NCBI RefSeq assembly: GCF_027923905.1
Contig: NZ_AP026966.1
Location: 4,961,001 to 5,025,000 of the forward strand
Direction of reading: 5' to 3'
DNA: 64,000 nt
Source: Massilia varians
GTDB taxonomy: Bacteria > Pseudomonadota > Gammaproteobacteria > Burkholderiales > Burkholderiaceae_D
In this document: positions 33,555-61,110 of the stretch, piece by piece
Position numbering within the stretch: position 1 is the first letter of the stretch
Layout: each line of letters starts with the position of its first letter
Position numbers and translations under genes: made by a program
The notes under the pieces: model-generated
Seen by the model: only the letters and a program-made list of their open reading frames with translations
Databases searched by the model: none
Told to the model about the DNA's origin: nothing

Positions 33555-33590
33555 AAACGGCCCGGTTCTCGCGAACCGGGCCGTTTTCTT
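33555..33590 (+). terminator. Rho-independent terminator of the tRNA-Met genes
   Basis: AAACGGCCCGGTTC and GAACCGGGCCGTTT form a strong GC-rich stem with a 3-nt loop, followed by TCTT. It is 6 bp after the second tRNA's CCA. Confidence 0.85.
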
Positions 33591-53240: not shown

Positions 53241-54811
53241 TGCTGCGCCGCCGTACCCAGCCCACCACCGCCCCTGATCCAGCATTACGCGGCACCAGGC
53301 CTTCCCCGAAGGCCCTGGTAGCGATGGCGCTGGCAGGCGCTGCCAGCCTGCTGTCCTTCCAGCCCTTCGGCTGGTGGCCGGTGCAGTTCCTCGCCCTTGC
53401 CTGCTTCTTCTACCAGGTCGGCATGGGCACGTCGCCGCGGCGCGGCGCGTGGCTGGGCTGGGCCTTCGGCTTCGGCTGGTCGGTGGCCGGCATGCACTGG
53501 CTGTACATCGCCGTCACCCGCTTCGGCGGCCTGCCCGCCATCCTGGGCGCGATCGCGATCGCCCTGCTCGGCCTGTACATGGGCCTGTTCGGCGCCTTCG
53601 CCGGCGGCGCCGCCAGCTGGTTGCGCCGCAAGTGGTCGCTGCCGGTGAGCGCCTTCGTGCTGCTGGTGCTGCCCGCCATGTGGGGCGTGTCGGAATGGAT
53701 GCGCGGCTGGATCTTCACCGGCTTCCCCTGGGCGGCCTCGGGCTATGCCCACAACGTCTCGCCCCTTGGCGGCTACGCGCCGCTCGTCGGCGTCTACGGC
53801 CTCGGCGTGCTGGCCGCCTTGTGCGCAGGCTGCCTGGTCATGCTGACCCAGCGCGCGCGCTGGCCGGCCATCGGCCTGCTGGCGGCCGTGATGGCGGTCG
53901 GCTTCGGCCTGAAGCAGGTCAGCTGGACCCAGGAAGTGGGACAGCCCTTGAGCGTGCGCCTGCTGCAGGGCGACGTCAGGCAGGACCAGAAATTCGACGC
54001 CGCTTATCTCCACGAGATCATCGACCGCTACCAGGCGATGATCACGGCGGCGCCGGCCGACCTGGTCGCCACGCCGGAAACGGCGATTCCCGTCACGCCG
54101 CAGCAGCTGCCCGACGGCTACCTGGGCGCGCTGCAGGGCTTTGCCCAGCAGAGCGGCAGCCACCTGATGATCGGCATTCCGACCCTGAACCGCGAGGGCC
54201 GCTATGCCAACAGCGTGATCGCGCTCGATCCGCGCGGCGCGGCGGGAACGCAGGGCTACCTCTACAACAAGCACCACCTGGTGCCCTTCGGCGAATTCAT
54301 TCCGCCGGGCTTCCGCTGGTTCACCGACCTGATGCGCATTCCGCTGGGCGACCAGACCCGCGGCGAGCCGCTGCAGGCGCCCTTCCCGGTGAAGGACCAG
54401 CTGGTGCTGCCGAATATCTGCTACGAGGACGCGTTTGGCGAAGAGATCGCGGCCCAGCTGCGCAATGCCGCGCAGCCCGCGACCCTGCTGCTGAACGTGT
54501 CGAACCTGGCCTGGTATGGCGAATCGGTGGCGATTCCGCAGCACCTGCAGATCTCGCAGATGCGCGCCATCGAAACCGGGCGCCCGATGCTGCGCTCGAC
54601 CAACAACGGCGCTACCGCCGTCATCGACGGCCGCGGCAATGTCGTGCAGCGCCTGCCCTTCTACGAGCGCGGCGTGCTGGCGGCAACGGTGCGCGGCACC
54701 GAAGGCCTGACGCCCTACGTCCGCGCCGGCAACCTGGCTTTCCTGGCGCTCGCCGGCCTGATGTTCCTTGGCGCATGGATCGCCGGCCGCTACCGCAATC
54801 GGGTTTCGTAG
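53240..54811 (+). CDS. lnt: Apolipoprotein N-acyltransferase Lnt
   Basis: Lnt adds the third acyl chain to lipoproteins. It has 523 residues: several N-terminal membrane segments and a periplasmic nitrilase-like domain with a Glu-Lys-Cys triad in DLVATPETAIPVTP (Glu), NKHHLVPFGEFIP (Lys) and LPNICYEDAFG (Cys). A last membrane segment is at LAFLALAGLMFLGAWIAGRY. The stop TAG at 54809-54811 is the TAG of the REP-like repeat that begins at 54807. The start ATG overlaps the corC stop. Confidence 0.96.
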   Translation: MLRRRTQPTTAPDPALRGTRPSPKALVAMALAGAASLLSFQPFGWWPVQFLALACFFYQVGMGTSPRRGAWLGWAFGFGWSVAGMHWLYIAVTRFGGLPAILGAIAIALLGLYMGLFGAFAGGAASWLRRKWSLPVSAFVLLVLPAMWGVSEWMRGWIFTGFPWAASGYAHNVSPLGGYAPLVGVYGLGVLAALCAGCLVMLTQRARWPAIGLLAAVMAVGFGLKQVSWTQEVGQPLSVRLLQGDVRQDQKFDAAYLHEIIDRYQAMITAAPADLVATPETAIPVTPQQLPDGYLGALQGFAQQSGSHLMIGIPTLNREGRYANSVIALDPRGAAGTQGYLYNKHHLVPFGEFIPPGFRWFTDLMRIPLGDQTRGEPLQAPFPVKDQLVLPNICYEDAFGEEIAAQLRNAAQPATLLLNVSNLAWYGESVAIPQHLQISQMRAIETGRPMLRSTNNGATAVIDGRGNVVQRLPFYERGVLAATVRGTEGLTPYVRAGNLAFLALAGLMFLGAWIAGRYRNRVS

Positions 54812-54930
54812 GGTGGACGGCTCCGCCGTCCGCGCATCCGACTCACCGACGCTCTGTGGCAACGCATCCGATCATTGAACGCGCGGACGGCGTAAAACAG
54901 TCCACTGGACTGTTTTACCGTCCACCCTAC
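54807..54930. repeat. REP-like inverted pair with nested 27-nt palindrome
   Basis: The left unit CGTAGGGTGGACGGC / CCGTCCGCGC is normal. In the right unit the stem loop is replaced by an exact 27-nt palindrome at 54892-54918: arms GTAAAACAGTCCA and TGGACTGTTTTAC around a central C. The outer GGACGG / CCGTCC pairing is kept. The first bases overlap the lnt stop codon. Confidence 0.85.
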
Positions 54931-54958
54931 AAAAACCCCACCAATTCGTACTGCTGAG

Positions 54959-54986
54959 TTGAATCGCTCCCCAGAATACCGATAAA
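54959..54986 (+). promoter_or_regulatory. Possible promoter of glyQ-glyS
   Basis: TTGAAT (54959-54964) and GATAAA (54981-54986) are separated by 16 bp, 83 bp upstream of the glyQ start. It is a moderate match to the sigma-70 consensus and lies in AT-richer DNA between the repeat and glyQ. Confidence 0.4.
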
Positions 54987-55068
54987 ACTTAGTAGAATTG
55001 GTCATTTGGCAAATTTACCGTGACCGCGGCAGGCAATGCCGCAGCGCCTCACCTATCGCTCACATCCG

Positions 55069-56013
55069 ATGCTCACATTCCAACAAATCATCCTCACCCT
55101 GCAGACCTACTGGGACAAGCAGGGTTGCGCACTGCTGCAGCCCTATGACATGGAAGTCGGCGCAGGCACCTTCCACACCGGCACCTTCTTGCGCGCGATC
55201 GGCCCGGAGCCGTGGCGCGCCGCCTACGTGCAGCCGTCGCGCCGTCCGAAGGATGGCCGCTACGGCGAGAACCCGAACCGCCTGCAGCACTACTACCAGT
55301 ACCAGGTGGTGCTGAAGCCCGCGCCGGAAAACATCCTCGACCTCTACCTCGGCTCGCTCGAGGCCCTGGGCCTGGATCTGAAGAAGAACGACGTGCGCTT
55401 CGTGGAAGACGACTGGGAAAGCCCGACCCTGGGCGCCTGGGGCCTGGGCTGGGAAGTCTGGCTGAACGGCATGGAAGTCACCCAGTTCACCTATTTCCAG
55501 CAGGTCGGCGGCCTCGATTGCAAGCCGGTGCTGGGCGAGATCACCTACGGCATCGAGCGCCTGGCCATGTACCTGCAGGGCGTCGAGAACGTCTACGACC
55601 TGGTGTGGACCGAGTGGGAGGAAAATGGTGCGGCCGGCGCTCCGGTCAAGAAGACCCTGTCGTACGGCGACGTCTTCCACCAGAACGAAGTCGAGCAGTC
55701 GACCTACAACTTCGAGCATGCCAACACCGAACTGCTGTTCCAGGCGTTCAGCAACCACGAAGCCGAGGCCAAGCGCCTGGTCGAGCTGCAGCTGACCCTG
55801 CCGGCCTACGAGCAGATCATGAAGGCTTCGCACAGCTTCAACATGCTGGACGCGCGCGGCGCCATCTCGGTGACCGAACGCGCCGCCTACATCGGCCGCG
55901 TGCGCACCCTGTCGCGCCTGGTGGCTCAGGCCTATTACGAGTCGCGCGAGAAGCTGGGCTTCCCGATGCTTGGGGCCGCCGAGGCCCGGGCTGACCAAAA
56001 GAACGCCGCTTGA
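55069..56013 (+). CDS. glyQ: Glycyl-tRNA synthetase alpha subunit
   Basis: This is the catalytic alpha chain of the alpha2-beta2 class-II enzyme that charges tRNA-Gly. It has 314 residues. Segments [40 protein letters not shown] and [20 protein letters not shown] are characteristic. The start ATG 55069 ([12 protein letters not shown]) is the usual N-terminus in Burkholderiales; an ATG 11 codons earlier is less likely. glyS follows 17 bp later. Confidence 0.96.
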
Positions 56014-56030
56014 AAAGAACAGAACAGACC

Positions 56031-58127
56031 ATGAATCAAACACTCCTCGTCGAAATCCAGACCGAAGAACTGCCCCCGAAAGCGCTCGTCAAGCTGGGCG
56101 CCGCGTTTGCCAACGGCATCGCCAATGGCCTGAAGGCGCGCGACTTTTTGGAAAGCGACAGCGTCGTCACCTCGCACGCCACCCCGCGCCGCCTGGCCGT
56201 CATGATCACCAACGTGCGCGGCACCTCGCCCGACAAATCGATCCGCGAAAAGGTGCTGCCGGTGTCGGTTGCCCTGGACAAGGACGGCAATCCGAGCGCC
56301 CCGCTGGCCAAGAAGCTGGCCGCGCTGGGCTTCCCCGACCTGAAGATCGGCGACCTCGAACGCGCCCAGGACGGCAAGGCCGAATCCTTCTTCTACACTT
56401 ACACCGCCAGCGGCAGCGCGCTCGCCAGCGCCCTGCAGGACGTGCTGCAGGACAGCGTCGCCAAGCTGCCGATCCCGAAAGTGATGAGCTACCAGCGCCC
56501 GAGCGGCGACACCGTGCACTTCGTGCGCCCAGTGCACCTGCTGCTCGCCCTGCACGGCGAACAGGTGCTGCCGCTGACGCTGCTGGGCCTGGAAGCCGGC
56601 CGCCACACCATGGGCCACCGCTTCCTGTCGCACGGCGGGAGAATCGCCATCCCGCACGCCGACCAGTACGCCAGCGTGCTGGAAAACGAAGGCAAGGTGC
56701 TCTCCAGCGCGGAGGCACGCAAGGAAAGCATCCGCAAGCAGCTGCTGGACAAGGCAGGCGCCGACCAGGTCCTGATGCCGGAGTCGCTGCTCGACGAAGT
56801 CGCCGCGCTGGTCGAATGGCCGGTGGTCTACGAATGCCGCTTCGAGGACGAATTCCTGGCCGTGCCGCAGGAATGCCTGATCCTCACCATGCAGACCAAC
56901 CAGAAGTATTTCGCGCTGACGGACAGCACCGGCAAGCTGCGCTCGCGCTTCCTGATCGTGTCGAACATCGCCACCGACGATCCGTCCGCCATCGTCGGCG
57001 GCAACGAGCGCGTAGTGCGCCCGCGCCTCTCGGACGCCAAGTTCTTCTTCGAGCAGGACAAGAAGAAGACCCTGGAATCGCGCCTGCCGCTGCTGGAAAA
57101 CGTGGTCTATCACAACAAGCTCGGCACCCAGCTCGAGCGCAGCGAACGCGTCACCGTCCTGGCGAGCAGCATCGCGCGCCGCCTGGGCTATGACGTGCCG
57201 CTGGCCGAACGCGGCGCCCGCCTGGCCAAGGCCGACCTGCTGACCGACATGGTCGGCGAGTTCCCCGAACTGCAGGGCATCATGGGCACCTACTACGCAC
57301 GCCACGACGGCGAGCACGAGGAAGTCGCCCTGGCCGCTTCCGAGCACTACCAGCCGCGCTTCGCCGGCGATACCCTGCCGTCCACCAATACCGGCCTGGT
57401 GGCCGCGCTGGCCGACAAGCTGGAAACCCTGGTCGGCATCTGGGCCATCGGCCTGCAGCCGACCGGCGAGAAGGATCCGTTCGCGCTGCGCCGCCACGCC
57501 CTGGGCGTGATGCGCATGCTGGTCGAGAAGCGCCTGCCGCTGTCGATCTCCGAGCTGCTGGCCGCAGCGGCCGGCGTGTTCGAAGGCCAGGCCGCGTTCA
57601 AGGATCCGCGCGCCGAGGTCACCGTGTTCATGCTGGACCGCCTGCGCGGCATGCTGCGCGAGCGCGGCTTCTCGCCGAACGAGGTCGAGGCCGTCCTGGC
57701 CCAGAACCCGGACCGCGTCGACGACGTCGTCCAGCGCCTGGAAGCGGTGCAGGCCTTCGCCGCCCTGCCGGAGTCGAGCTCGCTGGCCGCCGCCAACAAG
57801 CGCATCACCAACATCCTCAAGAAGAACGAGGAGGCGATGCCGGCCGACGCTTCGGTCAAGCAGGCGCTGCTGATCGAGCCGGCGGAAAGCGCGCTGGCCG
57901 CCAAGATGACCGCGCTCGAGGGCGAGGTCACCAGCGCGTTCGAGAACAGCGACTTCACCGGCGCCCTCAGGACCCTGGCGCTGATGAAGGATGAAGTCGA
58001 CGCCTTCTTCAACGACGTCATGGTGATGGCGGAAGACGTCAACCTGCGCAACAACCGCCTGGCGCTGCTGTCGCAGCTGCACGGCATGATGAACCGCGTC
58101 GCGGATATTTCGAAGCTCGCGGCATAA
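56031..58127 (+). CDS. glyS: Glycyl-tRNA synthetase beta subunit
   Basis: This 698-residue beta chain binds tRNA-Gly for the catalytic alpha chain. Landmarks are [30 protein letters not shown] [30 protein letters not shown] [55 protein letters not shown] and the anticodon-binding-like C-terminus ([20 protein letters not shown]). ATG 56031 is preferred. Confidence 0.97.
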
Positions 58128-58136
58128 GGCCTTATC

Positions 58137-58691
58137 ATGAAACTCATCATCCTCGACCGGGATGGAGTCATCAACCACGATTCGCCGGACTTCATCAAGT
58201 CGCCGGCGGAGTGGATCCCCATTCCCGGCTCGCTGGAAGCGATCGCCCGCCTGAACCAGGCGGGCTACCGGGTCGTGATCGCCTCGAACCAGTCGGGCAT
58301 CGCGCGCCAACTGTTCGACATCACGACCCTGAACGCGATCCACCAGAAACTGCACGCCAGCGCCCAGCTGGCCGGCGCCGACATCGACGCCATCTTCTTC
58401 TGTCCGCACGCCGCCAGCGACAACTGCGATTGCCGCAAGCCGAAGGCCGGCATGTTCGAAGAGATCAGCAAGCGCTACAAGCTGAGCCTGAAGGGCGTGC
58501 CGACCGTGGGCGATTCGCTGCGCGACCTGCAGGCCGGTTTTATCATGGGCTGCGTGCCCTACCTGGTCCTGACCGGCAAGGGCGAGAAGACGCAGCAGAC
58601 CGGGGGCCTGCCGCCCGGCACCCAGGTATTCCCCGACCTCGCGTCGATGGTGAACGCCTTTCTCAAGACCGCGGCACAGCGGCCCGAGTAA
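58137..58691 (+). CDS. gmhB: D-glycero-beta-D-manno-heptose 1,7-bisphosphate 7-phosphatase GmhB
   Basis: GmhB makes heptose 1-phosphate for the LPS inner core. The 184-residue HAD-superfamily protein has LDRDGVINHDSPDFIKSP (nucleophile Asp), VIASNQSGIARQLFD (Ser/Thr motif), the zinc-site loop FFCPHAASDNCDCRKPKAGM and VGDSLRDLQAG (Asp motif). It is 9 bp after glyS. waaC and waaA nearby use the heptose/Kdo pathway. Confidence 0.96.
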   Translation: MKLIILDRDGVINHDSPDFIKSPAEWIPIPGSLEAIARLNQAGYRVVIASNQSGIARQLFDITTLNAIHQKLHASAQLAGADIDAIFFCPHAASDNCDCRKPKAGMFEEISKRYKLSLKGVPTVGDSLRDLQAGFIMGCVPYLVLTGKGEKTQQTGGLPPGTQVFPDLASMVNAFLKTAAQRPE

Positions 58692-58739
58692 ATAAGCAAG
58701 CTATCACATCCAGAACCAGTCCAATTGTCCGGAGCCCCT

Positions 58740-59480
58740 TTGCATACCCTCAGCCTGTTCCTGCGTTCCCTGCTCTTCAAGATCGTCATGATCGTGGCCA
58801 CCGTGGTGTGGGCCTGTGTATGCTTCCTGGCGGCGCCGCTGCCCTACAACAAGCGCTTCTGGGTGACCTCGCGCTGGAACGTCTTCATCATCTGGGCTGC
58901 GCGCGTCATCTGCGGCATCCGCTACGAGTTCAAGGGCTACGAGAACCTGCCGGACGGCCCGGCCATCATCCTGTCCAAGCACCAGTCGGCGTGGGAGACC
59001 ATCTTCCTGCTGCCGAACCTCACCCGGCCCCTGGTCTACGTCTTCAAAAAAGAGATCCTCTACATCCCCTTCTTCGGCTGGGGCATGGCGTTGCTGCGCA
59101 TGATCCCGATCGACCGCAAGCAGGGCAAGAACGCGTTCGCCCAGGTGGTCAGGCATGGCCGCCGCCGCCTCGCGGACGGCCAGTGGATCATCATGTTCCC
59201 GGAAGGGACGCGCATCCCGGTCGGCCAGAAAGGCAAGTACAAGAGCGGCGGTACGCGCCTGGCTGTCGAAACCCAAACCGTGGTCGTCCCGATCGCGCAT
59301 AATTCAGGCGAGTGCTGGCCGAAGAATTCCTTCCTCAAGCGCCCCGGCCTGATCACGGTTTCGATCGGCAAGCCGATTTCGCCGGACAACCACACCCCCG
59401 ACAGCATGATGCAAGAGGTCGAAAATTGGATAGAATCCGAAATGCGCGTTATCTCGCCCCACGTCTACAAAGGTGGCTGA
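58740..59480 (+). CDS. plsC: 1-acyl-sn-glycerol-3-phosphate acyltransferase PlsC
   Basis: PlsC makes phosphatidic acid from lysophosphatidic acid at the membrane. It has about 246 residues: an N-terminal membrane segment (LFKIVMIVATVVWACVCFLA), then motif I ILSKHQSAWETIFL with H-x4-E, GMALLRMIPIDR, and motif III IIMFPEGTRIPVG. The start was set at TTG 58740 because GGAG precedes it by 5 nt; another TTG is 15 bp up. Confidence 0.92.
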   Translation: MHTLSLFLRSLLFKIVMIVATVVWACVCFLAAPLPYNKRFWVTSRWNVFIIWAARVICGIRYEFKGYENLPDGPAIILSKHQSAWETIFLLPNLTRPLVYVFKKEILYIPFFGWGMALLRMIPIDRKQGKNAFAQVVRHGRRRLADGQWIIMFPEGTRIPVGQKGKYKSGGTRLAVETQTVVVPIAHNSGECWPKNSFLKRPGLITVSIGKPISPDNHTPDSMMQEVENWIESEMRVISPHVYKGG

Positions 59481-59524
59481 GCGACGTCAGCGCCCAGATC
59501 AGGAATTCAAGACCGCAGCAATCC

Positions 59525-60427
59525 ATGACCTCCTCCAGGATCGACGGGCACCAGCTGGAACTGTTTGCACAGGAATTCTTCGCGGCGCTCAAGCCTTCGG
59601 ATAAACCGGCTCCGCCCGCGCAGCCTCTCTTCAAGGCGCCGCCTCCGGCGCCGCGCCACCTCATCCCGACGCCGCCGGTCGCCGACGGCGAGCCGCCGCT
59701 CAAGCGCATCGTCCTCGGCGCCCACACCGTCGATTACGCCCTGCGCCGCTCGACGCGCCGCTCGATCGGCTTCATGATCGACGACGACGGCCTGCGCGTG
59801 ACCGCCCCGCGCCGCTGCACCCAGATCGACATCGACAACGCGATCCGCGCCAAGCAGCGCTGGATCCTCACCAAGCTGCTGGAGCGCGGCGAGCGCCGCG
59901 CCCAGCGCCAGGAACGCATACCGGTGGCGTGGAAGGACGGCGCCCGCCTGCCCTACCTGGGCGGCGAGATCACCCTGCGGCTGGAAGAAGCGTCGCGCAG
60001 CCACTGCCAGTACGATGCGGCGAACCGCGAGCTGTGGATCGGCGTGGTGCCCGGCCTGTCGGAATGGCAGCTGAAGGAACGCGTCAAGCTGTGGTTCCAG
60101 GCCGAGGCGAAACGGCTGTTCAGGGAGCGCCTGGATTTCTTCGCGCCGCAGCTGAACGTGGCCTACAAGGCCTTTGCGCTGTCGTCGGCCGGCACGCGCT
60201 GGGGTTCGTGCACGATCGAGGGGAATATCCGCCTGAACTGGCGCCTGGTGCACTATCCGGCTTCCCTGGTGGACTACGTGGTGGTGCACGAACTGGCGCA
60301 CCTGCGCGAAATGAACCACAGCCCGCGCTTCTGGGCGACGGTGGCCGAGGTGTATCCGGATTACGACGGGGCGCGGCTGGCGCTCAAGAAGCGCTCGCTG
60401 GAGATGCCAGTTTTATTTGCGGATTGA
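59525..60427 (+). CDS. YgjP-like (DUF45) metal-dependent hydrolase
   Basis: This 300-residue protein of the YgjP/M48-related metallopeptidase family has a Pro-rich N-terminus (about 30-55), then SIGFMIDDDGLRVTAPRRCT, GGEITLRLEEASRSH, SAGTRWGSCTIEGNIRLNWR (family signature) and the zinc motif VVHELAHLREMNHSPRFW (HExxH plus His). The substrate is unknown. The start is ATG 59525. It follows plsC by 44 bp and ends 4 bp before a REP-like repeat. Confidence 0.9.
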   Translation: MTSSRIDGHQLELFAQEFFAALKPSDKPAPPAQPLFKAPPPAPRHLIPTPPVADGEPPLKRIVLGAHTVDYALRRSTRRSIGFMIDDDGLRVTAPRRCTQIDIDNAIRAKQRWILTKLLERGERRAQRQERIPVAWKDGARLPYLGGEITLRLEEASRSHCQYDAANRELWIGVVPGLSEWQLKERVKLWFQAEAKRLFRERLDFFAPQLNVAYKAFALSSAGTRWGSCTIEGNIRLNWRLVHYPASLVDYVVVHELAHLREMNHSPRFWATVAEVYPDYDGARLALKKRSLEMPVLFAD

Positions 60428-60431
60428 TTTT

Positions 60432-60565
60432 CGTAGGGTGGGCGGGTCTGCCGCCCACGCGGTGATCGCCATCGGCTCCGTTATCGCGCCGGATGATCTC
60501 GCTTCAAACTATCACCGCGTGGGCGGCAAAGCGTGATCTGGTCCACTGGACCAGATCACCCCTAC
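60432..60565. repeat. REP-like inverted pair with nested 27-nt palindrome (second case)
   Basis: The left unit CGTAGGGTGGGCGGG / CCGCCCACGCGG is normal. The right unit ATCACCGCGTGGGCGGC is interrupted by an exact 27-nt palindrome at 60533-60559, with arms GTGATCTGGTCCA and TGGACCAGATCAC around C, and ends CCCTAC. The core GTCCACTGGAC is the same as in the 54892 palindrome. The last bases supply the stop codon of the YcxB-like gene on the other strand. Confidence 0.85.
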
Positions 60566-61110
60566 AGAAGCGAATCCCGGCGGGCAGCCGCCAACTCTTT
60601 CATCGCCCCCTTCTGCGCATCCGACAGCGCCCGATACGGAATCGGCAAGGTCCCGCGCTTGAGCACCATCATGAACCCGCGCGAGTAGGTGCGCACGCCG
60701 ATCACGTCTTCCCACCCGATCAGGGTCACGCCCCCGCTGGTGCGCACGATGCCGTGCTGGTCGATGGTGAACTCGTAGGTGCGGCGTCCGCGGCCGAGCA
60801 TGACGAAATGGAGGGCGGCGCCCAGGGTGCTTTTCAGGCGCAGGTAGAGGCTGGCTGGCCAGCGGATGCGGCGGCGGCGGATGAGGAAGCCGCCGTGCTG
60901 CCACATGAAGCTGATGTATTCGCCGAGCGTGTAGCGCACGAAGAAATGCAGTTCGGACAAGGGGACGGGAGGCGCAGCGGATGGCGCCGGCATGTCGACG
61001 GGGCGGTCACTCACAGGCACGTGCAGCAGCTTGTCGTCGGCCTGTTCCTGGATCAGCATGGCGACGGGTTTATTGCTGTTAACGGGCCTCGGGTGATTAA
61101 ACGACAACAT
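60562..61110 (-). CDS. YcxB-like protein
   Basis: This 182-residue protein has a C-terminal YcxB-like domain (YEFTIDQHGIVRTSGGVTLI, GWEDVIGVRTYSRGFMMVLK, GTLPIPYRAL). The N-terminal half is more polar (PVSDRPVDMPAPSAAPPVPL), with a mildly hydrophobic stretch further on (SELHFFVRYTLGEYISFMWQ). The function is unknown. AGGGG precedes ATG 61110. Its stop codon TAG (60564-60562) lies inside a REP-like repeat. It follows waaA on the same strand. Confidence 0.8.
   Translation of the reverse strand: MLSFNHPRPVNSNKPVAMLIQEQADDKLLHVPVSDRPVDMPAPSAAPPVPLSELHFFVRYTLGEYISFMWQHGGFLIRRRRIRWPASLYLRLKSTLGAALHFVMLGRGRRTYEFTIDQHGIVRTSGGVTLIGWEDVIGVRTYSRGFMMVLKRGTLPIPYRALSDAQKGAMKELAAARRDSLL

Follow-up and report, generated by a model that had tools for sequence, protein, structure and literature searches.

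The window examined here, a 64,000-nucleotide (nt) stretch (positions 4961001-5025000) of the 5.58-Mb single-contig genome of Massilia varians (Massilia/Telluria group; G000 in our numbering, in which G denotes genomes and L loci), holds two copies of a discrete 27-nt hairpin, called the module below, within repetitive extragenic palindromic (REP) units of the GTAG-tagged GTAGGGTG family. Its insertion as a block into hairpins is well supported, and we see about an even chance that it spreads together with the population of REPs and their REP-associated tyrosine transposase (RAYT). Its size is fixed, its arms co-vary, orthologous sites occur filled and empty, several target positions are used, and copies also lie outside REPs, including one in frame in moeA. 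The module may rank among the smallest DNA that spreads within genomes.

Copies, pairing and stem length

The sequence-only reading had described palindromes at 54892-54918 and 60533-60559, and both are exact, with 27 nt, 13-nt arms, a central C and a common 11-nt core, GTCCACTGGAC, of which the window has two occurrences where shuffled sequence averages 0.04; the flanking arms, GTAAAACA at 54892 and GTGATCTG at 60533, are matched on the opposite side. Among window palindromes with arms of at least 11 nt (loops of 0, 1 and 3-8), there is just one further long case, a 32-nt hairpin at 33555. Each module folds into a 12-bp stem with the triloop ACT (11 bp at 54892 when the whole unit is folded), and the two bacterial interspersed mosaic elements (BIMEs) that hold them reach z-scores of -8.6 and -8.5 when folded as DNA. 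Both copies are intergenic. The proposal that the module takes the place of the REP loop in both cases holds for 54892, where the REP arms are partly retained (GGACG..CGTCC), but fails for 60533, where the module lies outside the loop and has taken over the greater part of the 3' arm in the right-hand REP hairpin (CGCGTGGGCGGCAAAGC[27]CCCTAC, with [27] standing for the module). The features are as follows.

54808..54831, + strand: left GTAG-REP hairpin (GTAGGGTGGACGGC TCC GCCGTCC) of the BIME downstream of an lnt-like gene, matching the REP pattern
54881..54891, - strand: right REP, proximal part (GCGCGGACGGC), from sequence
54892..54918, + strand: 27-nt hairpin module, arms GTAAAACA, loop type, from palindrome and fold; probably replaces about 5 nt, judging from the REP pattern
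54919..54930, - strand: right REP, distal part (CGTCCACCCTAC), from sequence
60433..60461, + strand: left GTAG-REP hairpin of the second BIME, from sequence
60516..60532, - strand: right REP, 5' arm, loop and first 2 nt of the 3' arm (CGCGTGGGCGGCAAAGC), from sequence
60533..60559, + strand: 27-nt hairpin module, arms GTGATCTG, 3'-arm position, from palindrome and fold; probably replaces about 6 nt, judging from the REP pattern
60560..60565, - strand: right REP end, CCCTAC, from sequence

Across the whole genome, 29 GTCCACTGGAC cores were counted against 5 for a reversed-pattern control, and 23 full 27-mers of the form GT-N6-GTCCACTGGAC-N6-AC against none. All but one of these cores form hairpins, 23 with unbroken arms of at least 13 nt, one of which ends in GG..CC, and 5 whose arms contain a mismatch; the remaining core (L001) is in coding sequence and has no extended arms. 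GTAG-REP units hold 26 of the 28 hairpins, 23 by a script based on short end patterns, which leaves up to 14 cases per genome without assignment, and 3 by eye; one of the script-assigned cases (L012) rests on a degenerate end, while among the five that the script left, L008, L010 and L014 have degenerate REP ends by eye and L011 and L026 have none. The link to a second structured element in this REP family is thereby borne out, and the contrary cases, that the two window copies are the only ones or that such palindromes lie mainly outside REPs, do not apply.

In a comparison set of 62 genomes of the genus, the same pattern gave 150 matches in 17 genomes, up to 28 per relative, and none for the reversed control. 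With the outer six positions left free, 125 of these matches pair at 13 of 13 positions, 20 at 12, 4 at 11 and 1 at 10; they comprise 53 distinct sequences, 33 of them perfect. In the alignment of these 53 sequences (A1), which was not selected for arm pairing and on which the covariation statistics are based, 97.0% of cells are paired against 81.4% after shuffling, with a score of 0.457 against 0.151 (0 of 500 shuffles), and all six varying pairs are altered on both sides, so that the co-variation proposed from the two window copies is upheld. A second alignment (A2) was selected for full pairing, so covariation is there by construction and it was not used. A survey of 294 genomes of the family with the exact pattern found 12 positive, all of this genus, and none among 267 genomes from 43 other genera; these counts in own genome, genus and family overlook variants, such as a GG..CC module that adjoins a RAYT gene in G019. 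A phage source was considered and rejected, since the 29 matches to the pattern in viral contigs pair at 7-11 positions each, none at 12 or more of 13, which is the chance level.

The shared core is a true feature of the two window copies; as a constant feature it does not stand, and it had seemed constant partly because only two copies were in view. A scan for 12-bp stems over 2.43 Mb, made up of own-genome stretches and of stretches from five relatives that were picked around known modules and are not a random sample, returned GGCCACTGGCC (9), GGGCAATGCCC (6), TGCCACTGGCA (4), GTCCACCGGAC (4) and other cores, all paired; CTCCACTGGAG also occurs. Perfect triloop stems near REPs are concentrated at two lengths, 9 bp (71, the REP itself) and 12 bp (122); one has 10 bp, none has 11 bp and 12 have 13 bp or more, with a few own loci counted twice. 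The triloop of the 145 modules in REP context is ACT in 128, AAT in 10, ACC in 5 and ACA in 2, and 131 have GT..AC ends. Near REPs the stem length is locked while core and arms change, always in pairs.

Filled and empty sites and the geometry of insertion

The clearest exchange is found at L018, upstream of a RAYT gene, where flanks of 93% identity enclose GGCTC-CGCCG-TCCGCGCG in G003 and GGCTC-[27]-TCCGCGCG in G000. At L312/L004 (G002 vs G000) and L366/L370 (G030 vs G045), 6 nt are exchanged for the module. Beyond REPs, moeA of G045 holds the 27-mer GTAAGCAGCTCCACTGGAGCTGCTTAC, a net gain of 24 nt in frame (VSSSTGAA), and the orthologs of G000 and G030 lack the insert. Judging from its size, loop and ends, this insert is probably the same module with a core differing at one pair. 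The open reading frame (ORF) is intact, with 414 aa and MoeA_N, MoCF_biosynth and MoeA_C domains; the NCBIfam MoeA model scores it at 393 bits, under the 440 cut-off.

Turnover from species to species is fast. In one orthologous BIME the module occupies a different position in each of four species (L009, L295, L307, L347), and among the ortholog pairs listed module and position are common at two loci only, both between G000 and G003. None of the 13 loci read that are orthologous to site 54892 carries it: G045 and G007 have the BIME without the module, G003 has a single REP, and the others have no REP in the stretch. For site 60533, the listed 27-mers include none at the coordinates that correspond to it in G003, G045, G007, G054 and G002, and the matching stretch of the nearest relative, G003, consists of two intact REPs. 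A separate observation concerns the G003 ortholog of 54808-54930 (L425), in which the BIME has collapsed into one hybrid REP, GTAGGGTGGACGGCTCCGCCGTCCACCCTAC.

The idea that the element inserts at one site of the repeat had to be given up. In type A (54 of 145) the REP retains its 5' arm and loop plus two bases (GC in 42, CC in 12), after which the module follows, and in type B (31 of 145) GTAGGG..GGCTY is kept and the REP resumes in its 3' arm; the other 60, among them loop positions such as 54892, lie elsewhere, and there are places outside REPs as well. None of the 31 type B modules is inverted relative to the REP, and of the 54 in type A at most one is, an ambiguous case. Arms cluster by position, GTAAAACA and GTAGTTCA being found in the loop type. 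Where a GTAG adjoins the module it is part of the host REP, and at moeA, L011 and L026 there is none. Four 27-nt hairpins with the core TGCCACTGGCA and an ACT triloop were found (L288:8606, L322:11348, L371:7499, L327:6267), the first three of which sit in a second dispersed repeat family (CCGGCGAAGG..). This second Massilia repeat (..CCGGCGAAGGC[27]TCCAAG) presumably fits the same insertion rule, judged against a presumed empty form. In G052, the modules at L073 and L085 lie inside a non-GTAG repeat (..ATGGG[27]CCTTCGCGGGAACGACG and kin), and at L294, L061 and L289:19710 a module has entered an earlier module copy in tandem.

RAYT association, strand bias and rival explanations

The ORF adjoining L018 is a RAYT (NF047646, 194.8 bits against a cut-off of 80; Y1_Tnp), and modules adjoin RAYT genes in both G000 and G019. 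A close RAYT subfamily (at least 73% identity) is found in 9 genomes, all of which have modules, against 8 of the 53 others (Fisher 1.2e-6), and these 9 genomes hold 134 of the 150 module copies. Among 19 REP-rich genomes, modules occur in 8 of 8 with the subfamily vs 3 of 11 without it (p = 0.003); since the REP-rich genomes without it mostly lack the pattern (8 of 11: G008, G009, G026, G041, G044, G055, G056, G061), REPs alone are insufficient. On these genome comparisons the RAYT association seems strong, though largely confounded with clade. As to strand, dnaA lies at base 1 of the M. varians genome, the GGGNAGGG strand switches at about 2.92-3.05 Mb (few motifs per stretch), and 21 of 28 cores are on the GGGNAGGG strand (p = 0.013). 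In six genomes, by local motif counts, the GTAG strand is on the strand of the FtsK-orienting polar sequences (KOPS) in 52 of 136 module-bearing REPs vs 50 of 87 intact REPs (Fisher 0.006). Such a bias is compatible with the single-strand mobility described for IS200/IS605 relatives (PMC6006769, in excerpt), without proving it. Independently of the modules, the exact REP matches listed for own-genome positions 844020-2336724 are all on the + strand while elsewhere they form +/- pairs, either an effect of the listing or a real asymmetry.

The proposed route runs as follows. A module with a 12-bp stem, the triloop ACT or a near variant and mostly GT..AC ends enters a hairpin arm or loop as a block, replacing about 5-6 nt, with the GTAG-REP as its usual target. 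New copies may form on single-stranded hairpin DNA, exposed at the fork or present as an intermediate of the REP doublet forming hairpins (REPIN), and the likeliest enzyme would be the RAYT of the lineage, a Y1 HUH enzyme. Perfect pairing would be kept if only well-folded copies are mobilised, if one arm is re-copied from the other, or both.

Several points weigh against this route. A module flanks only 2 of 22 RAYT loci, and GyrB places 8 of the 9 genomes with the RAYT subfamily in one clade (at least 96%), leaving only G007 (92%) independent, so that the linkage may reflect descent. Eight module-bearing genomes lack the subfamily, among them G025 with 5 modules. The strand bias is weak, by genome nominally significant only in G000 (6 of 23) and absent in G007 (19 of 39), and core orientation in G045 (16 of 20) is reversed relative to G000, which can be reconciled only if REP orientation matters. 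Neither an excision product nor a circle was seen, and passive copying of the module by REP spread or gene conversion could be at work. The arms barely follow the host REP arm: among 41 type A cases, 11 have arms that match the complemented host REP dinucleotide, where shuffling gives 7.1 (p = 0.026), and copying of the arms from the target was dropped as a candidate because this is too weak for a mechanism.

A tentative and rather doubtful alternative is that the modules are long-stem variants of the REPs, the 27-nt hairpin having arisen a few times within REPs and moving only by REPIN or BIME copying and gene conversion. It would suit the predominance of copies in REPs, the frequency of the exact type A and type B junctions and the clustering of arms by position, and GTAG REPs with stems of 12-13 bp have been published (GTAG-24; PMC3733652, in excerpt); it sits poorly with the moeA insertion, the second repeat family, the repeat in G052 and the self-insertions, and also with the L018 pair, where 5 nt are swapped for 27 in an otherwise 93%-identical REP region. 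Another alternative is replication template switching at hairpins (the quasipalindrome mechanism), by which perfect palindromes would be made on the spot and their arms kept matched, the core reflecting a preferred foldback or an ectopic donor. Hairpins reportedly arise and are maintained through template switching (PMC8794818, in excerpt), a hairpin arm with 5-6 nt exchanged looks like the scar that it would leave, and the 20 of 150 matches with 12 of 13 pairs are as expected of repair intermediates. Yet a simple foldback copies local sequence, and the inner arms and core are absent from empty REPs; the fixed 12-bp length is unexpected; and switching from arm to arm would often flip the triloop, which is at odds with the near absence of inverted modules. 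We consider it unlikely.

More improbable still is a function at the RNA level, in which the hairpin would be kept as a terminator or as a stabiliser of mRNA 3' ends. The very stable folds and the intergenic position of the window copies would agree with it, but no T run of an intrinsic terminator follows the window hairpins (CGTCCACCCTAC and CCCTACAGAA follow instead), Rfam has no match across 54700-60700, one copy lies inside moeA, and presence differs site by site between close species.

Similar hairpins outside the genus and known systems

It is also doubtful, though conceivable, that the module is a free-standing transposable 27-nt hairpin, recognised by its shape, a 12-bp stem with an ACT triloop, and entering two bases into the 3' arm of its target with the loss of 5-6 bases, with relatives in Lachnospiraceae (the tRNA-Pro copies below), other Clostridia, Rhodobacter, Bifidobacterium and Streptococcus under the same rule. 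A search of genome contigs gave at least 119 matches; among the matches listed, 59 are from Massilia/Telluria (49 perfect) and 60 from others (12 perfect, 6 at 12 of 13), namely Clostridia, Lachnospiraceae, Rhodobacter, Bifidobacterium, Saccharibacteria, a gammaproteobacterium and others. Real hairpins are so frequent across 257 billion bases that a number of perfect ones with this core would be expected in any case, and no kinship is therefore claimed for the non-Massilia palindromes; the similar hairpins of Clostridia, Streptococcus and other groups could be either relatives or background. The best candidates for kinship outside Massilia are tRNA-Pro-like copies in Lachnospiraceae and another Clostridiales metagenome-assembled genome, in which an intact AGAGG-CCGCT-GGTTCG contrasts with AGAGG-[27]-GGTTCG under the same insertion rule; L095 and L128 adjoin intact tRNA-Pro(cgg) copies, with 27 nt in place of 5, and L148 is similar, with no tRNA called there.

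A model search gave 81 and 44 matches in two rabbit-gut Clostridia genomes, many of them counted on both strands. The rabbit-gut Clostridia G063 and G067 contain composite repeats that bear, at one and the same place, perfect hairpins with a changing sequence (e.g. L225:1738; TTGTGAAATAGTCCACTGGACTATTTCACAA, TTGAAAAACAATCCACAGGATTGTTTTTCAA). Alternating hairpin arrays were observed in Streptococcus mitis (L150, L130), every second hairpin being a short palindrome with changing arms (CTCCACTGGAG, GTCCCCCGGAC, GTCCAGTGGAC, GTTCAGTGAAC, GTCTGGGAGAC), and in Saccharibacteria (L194, L202) two perfect hairpins have different arms (GTTTATAA, GTTTAAGA) in similar context.

The nearest kinds of known element are REP/REPIN, the small dispersed repeats (SDRs) of Nostoc and the Rickettsia palindromic elements (RPEs); no description of such a module was found in the open-licence PMC literature, including by a search with the core letters, for which the titles listed, one of them on small ORFs of Streptococcus pneumoniae, are unrelated. 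GTAG-tagged REPs and REPINs with their RAYT (TnpA_REP) are described in PMC3116915, PMC3733652 and PMC8266576, the first of which also cites SDRs (all in excerpt). The host unit here, with its GTAGGG, is a REP of this kind, and the module resembles REP/REPIN in being a short, perfect, dispersed hairpin, in some cases with a RAYT nearby; in the excerpts, compensatory hairpin changes are reported for REPIN spacers, and REPs are reported in frame inside ORFs, as is the module in moeA. Like REPs it is mostly extragenic and has many copies (28 hairpins in G000). Unlike them it lacks a GTAG tag at its own hairpin foot, has a 12-bp stem with triloop ACT, and is nested in REPs and elsewhere, replacing 5-6 nt; because of the missing GTAG it is grouped with small hairpin repeats, apart from REPs. 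The Nostoc SDRs (SDR5 and others), reportedly described by Elhai and co-workers in 2008, are said to be hairpin-forming, 21-27 nt long, nested in other repeats and subject to compensatory changes. The module would fall under that definition (20-30 nt, nested hairpin, compensatory changes), a likeness in kind only; it comes from another phylum and presumably has another sequence. RPEs, described as palindromic in-frame inserts in ORFs (PMC3733652, in excerpt), are longer, whereas the module is an insert of 24-27 nt found chiefly in REP hairpins, with one confirmed coding insertion (moeA) among the copies covered, where RPEs have in-frame insertion as a main habit. Quasipalindrome template switching, as far as excerpts of PMC8794818 and PMC8604942 present it, accounts for the upkeep of perfect arms, but not for fixed length, common core and dispersed copies.

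If true, a free-standing transposable hairpin of 27 nt would be about the smallest mobile DNA known. The moeA copy indicates that DNA of less than 30 nt can yield an in-frame peptide insertion, here in MoeA. The spread of REP-like sequences, and the way in which perfect hairpins are kept up while their letters change, are standing questions, and the module makes both testable, as it offers clean filled and empty sites, a fixed geometry, REP-rich genomes with and without it, and a candidate enzyme.

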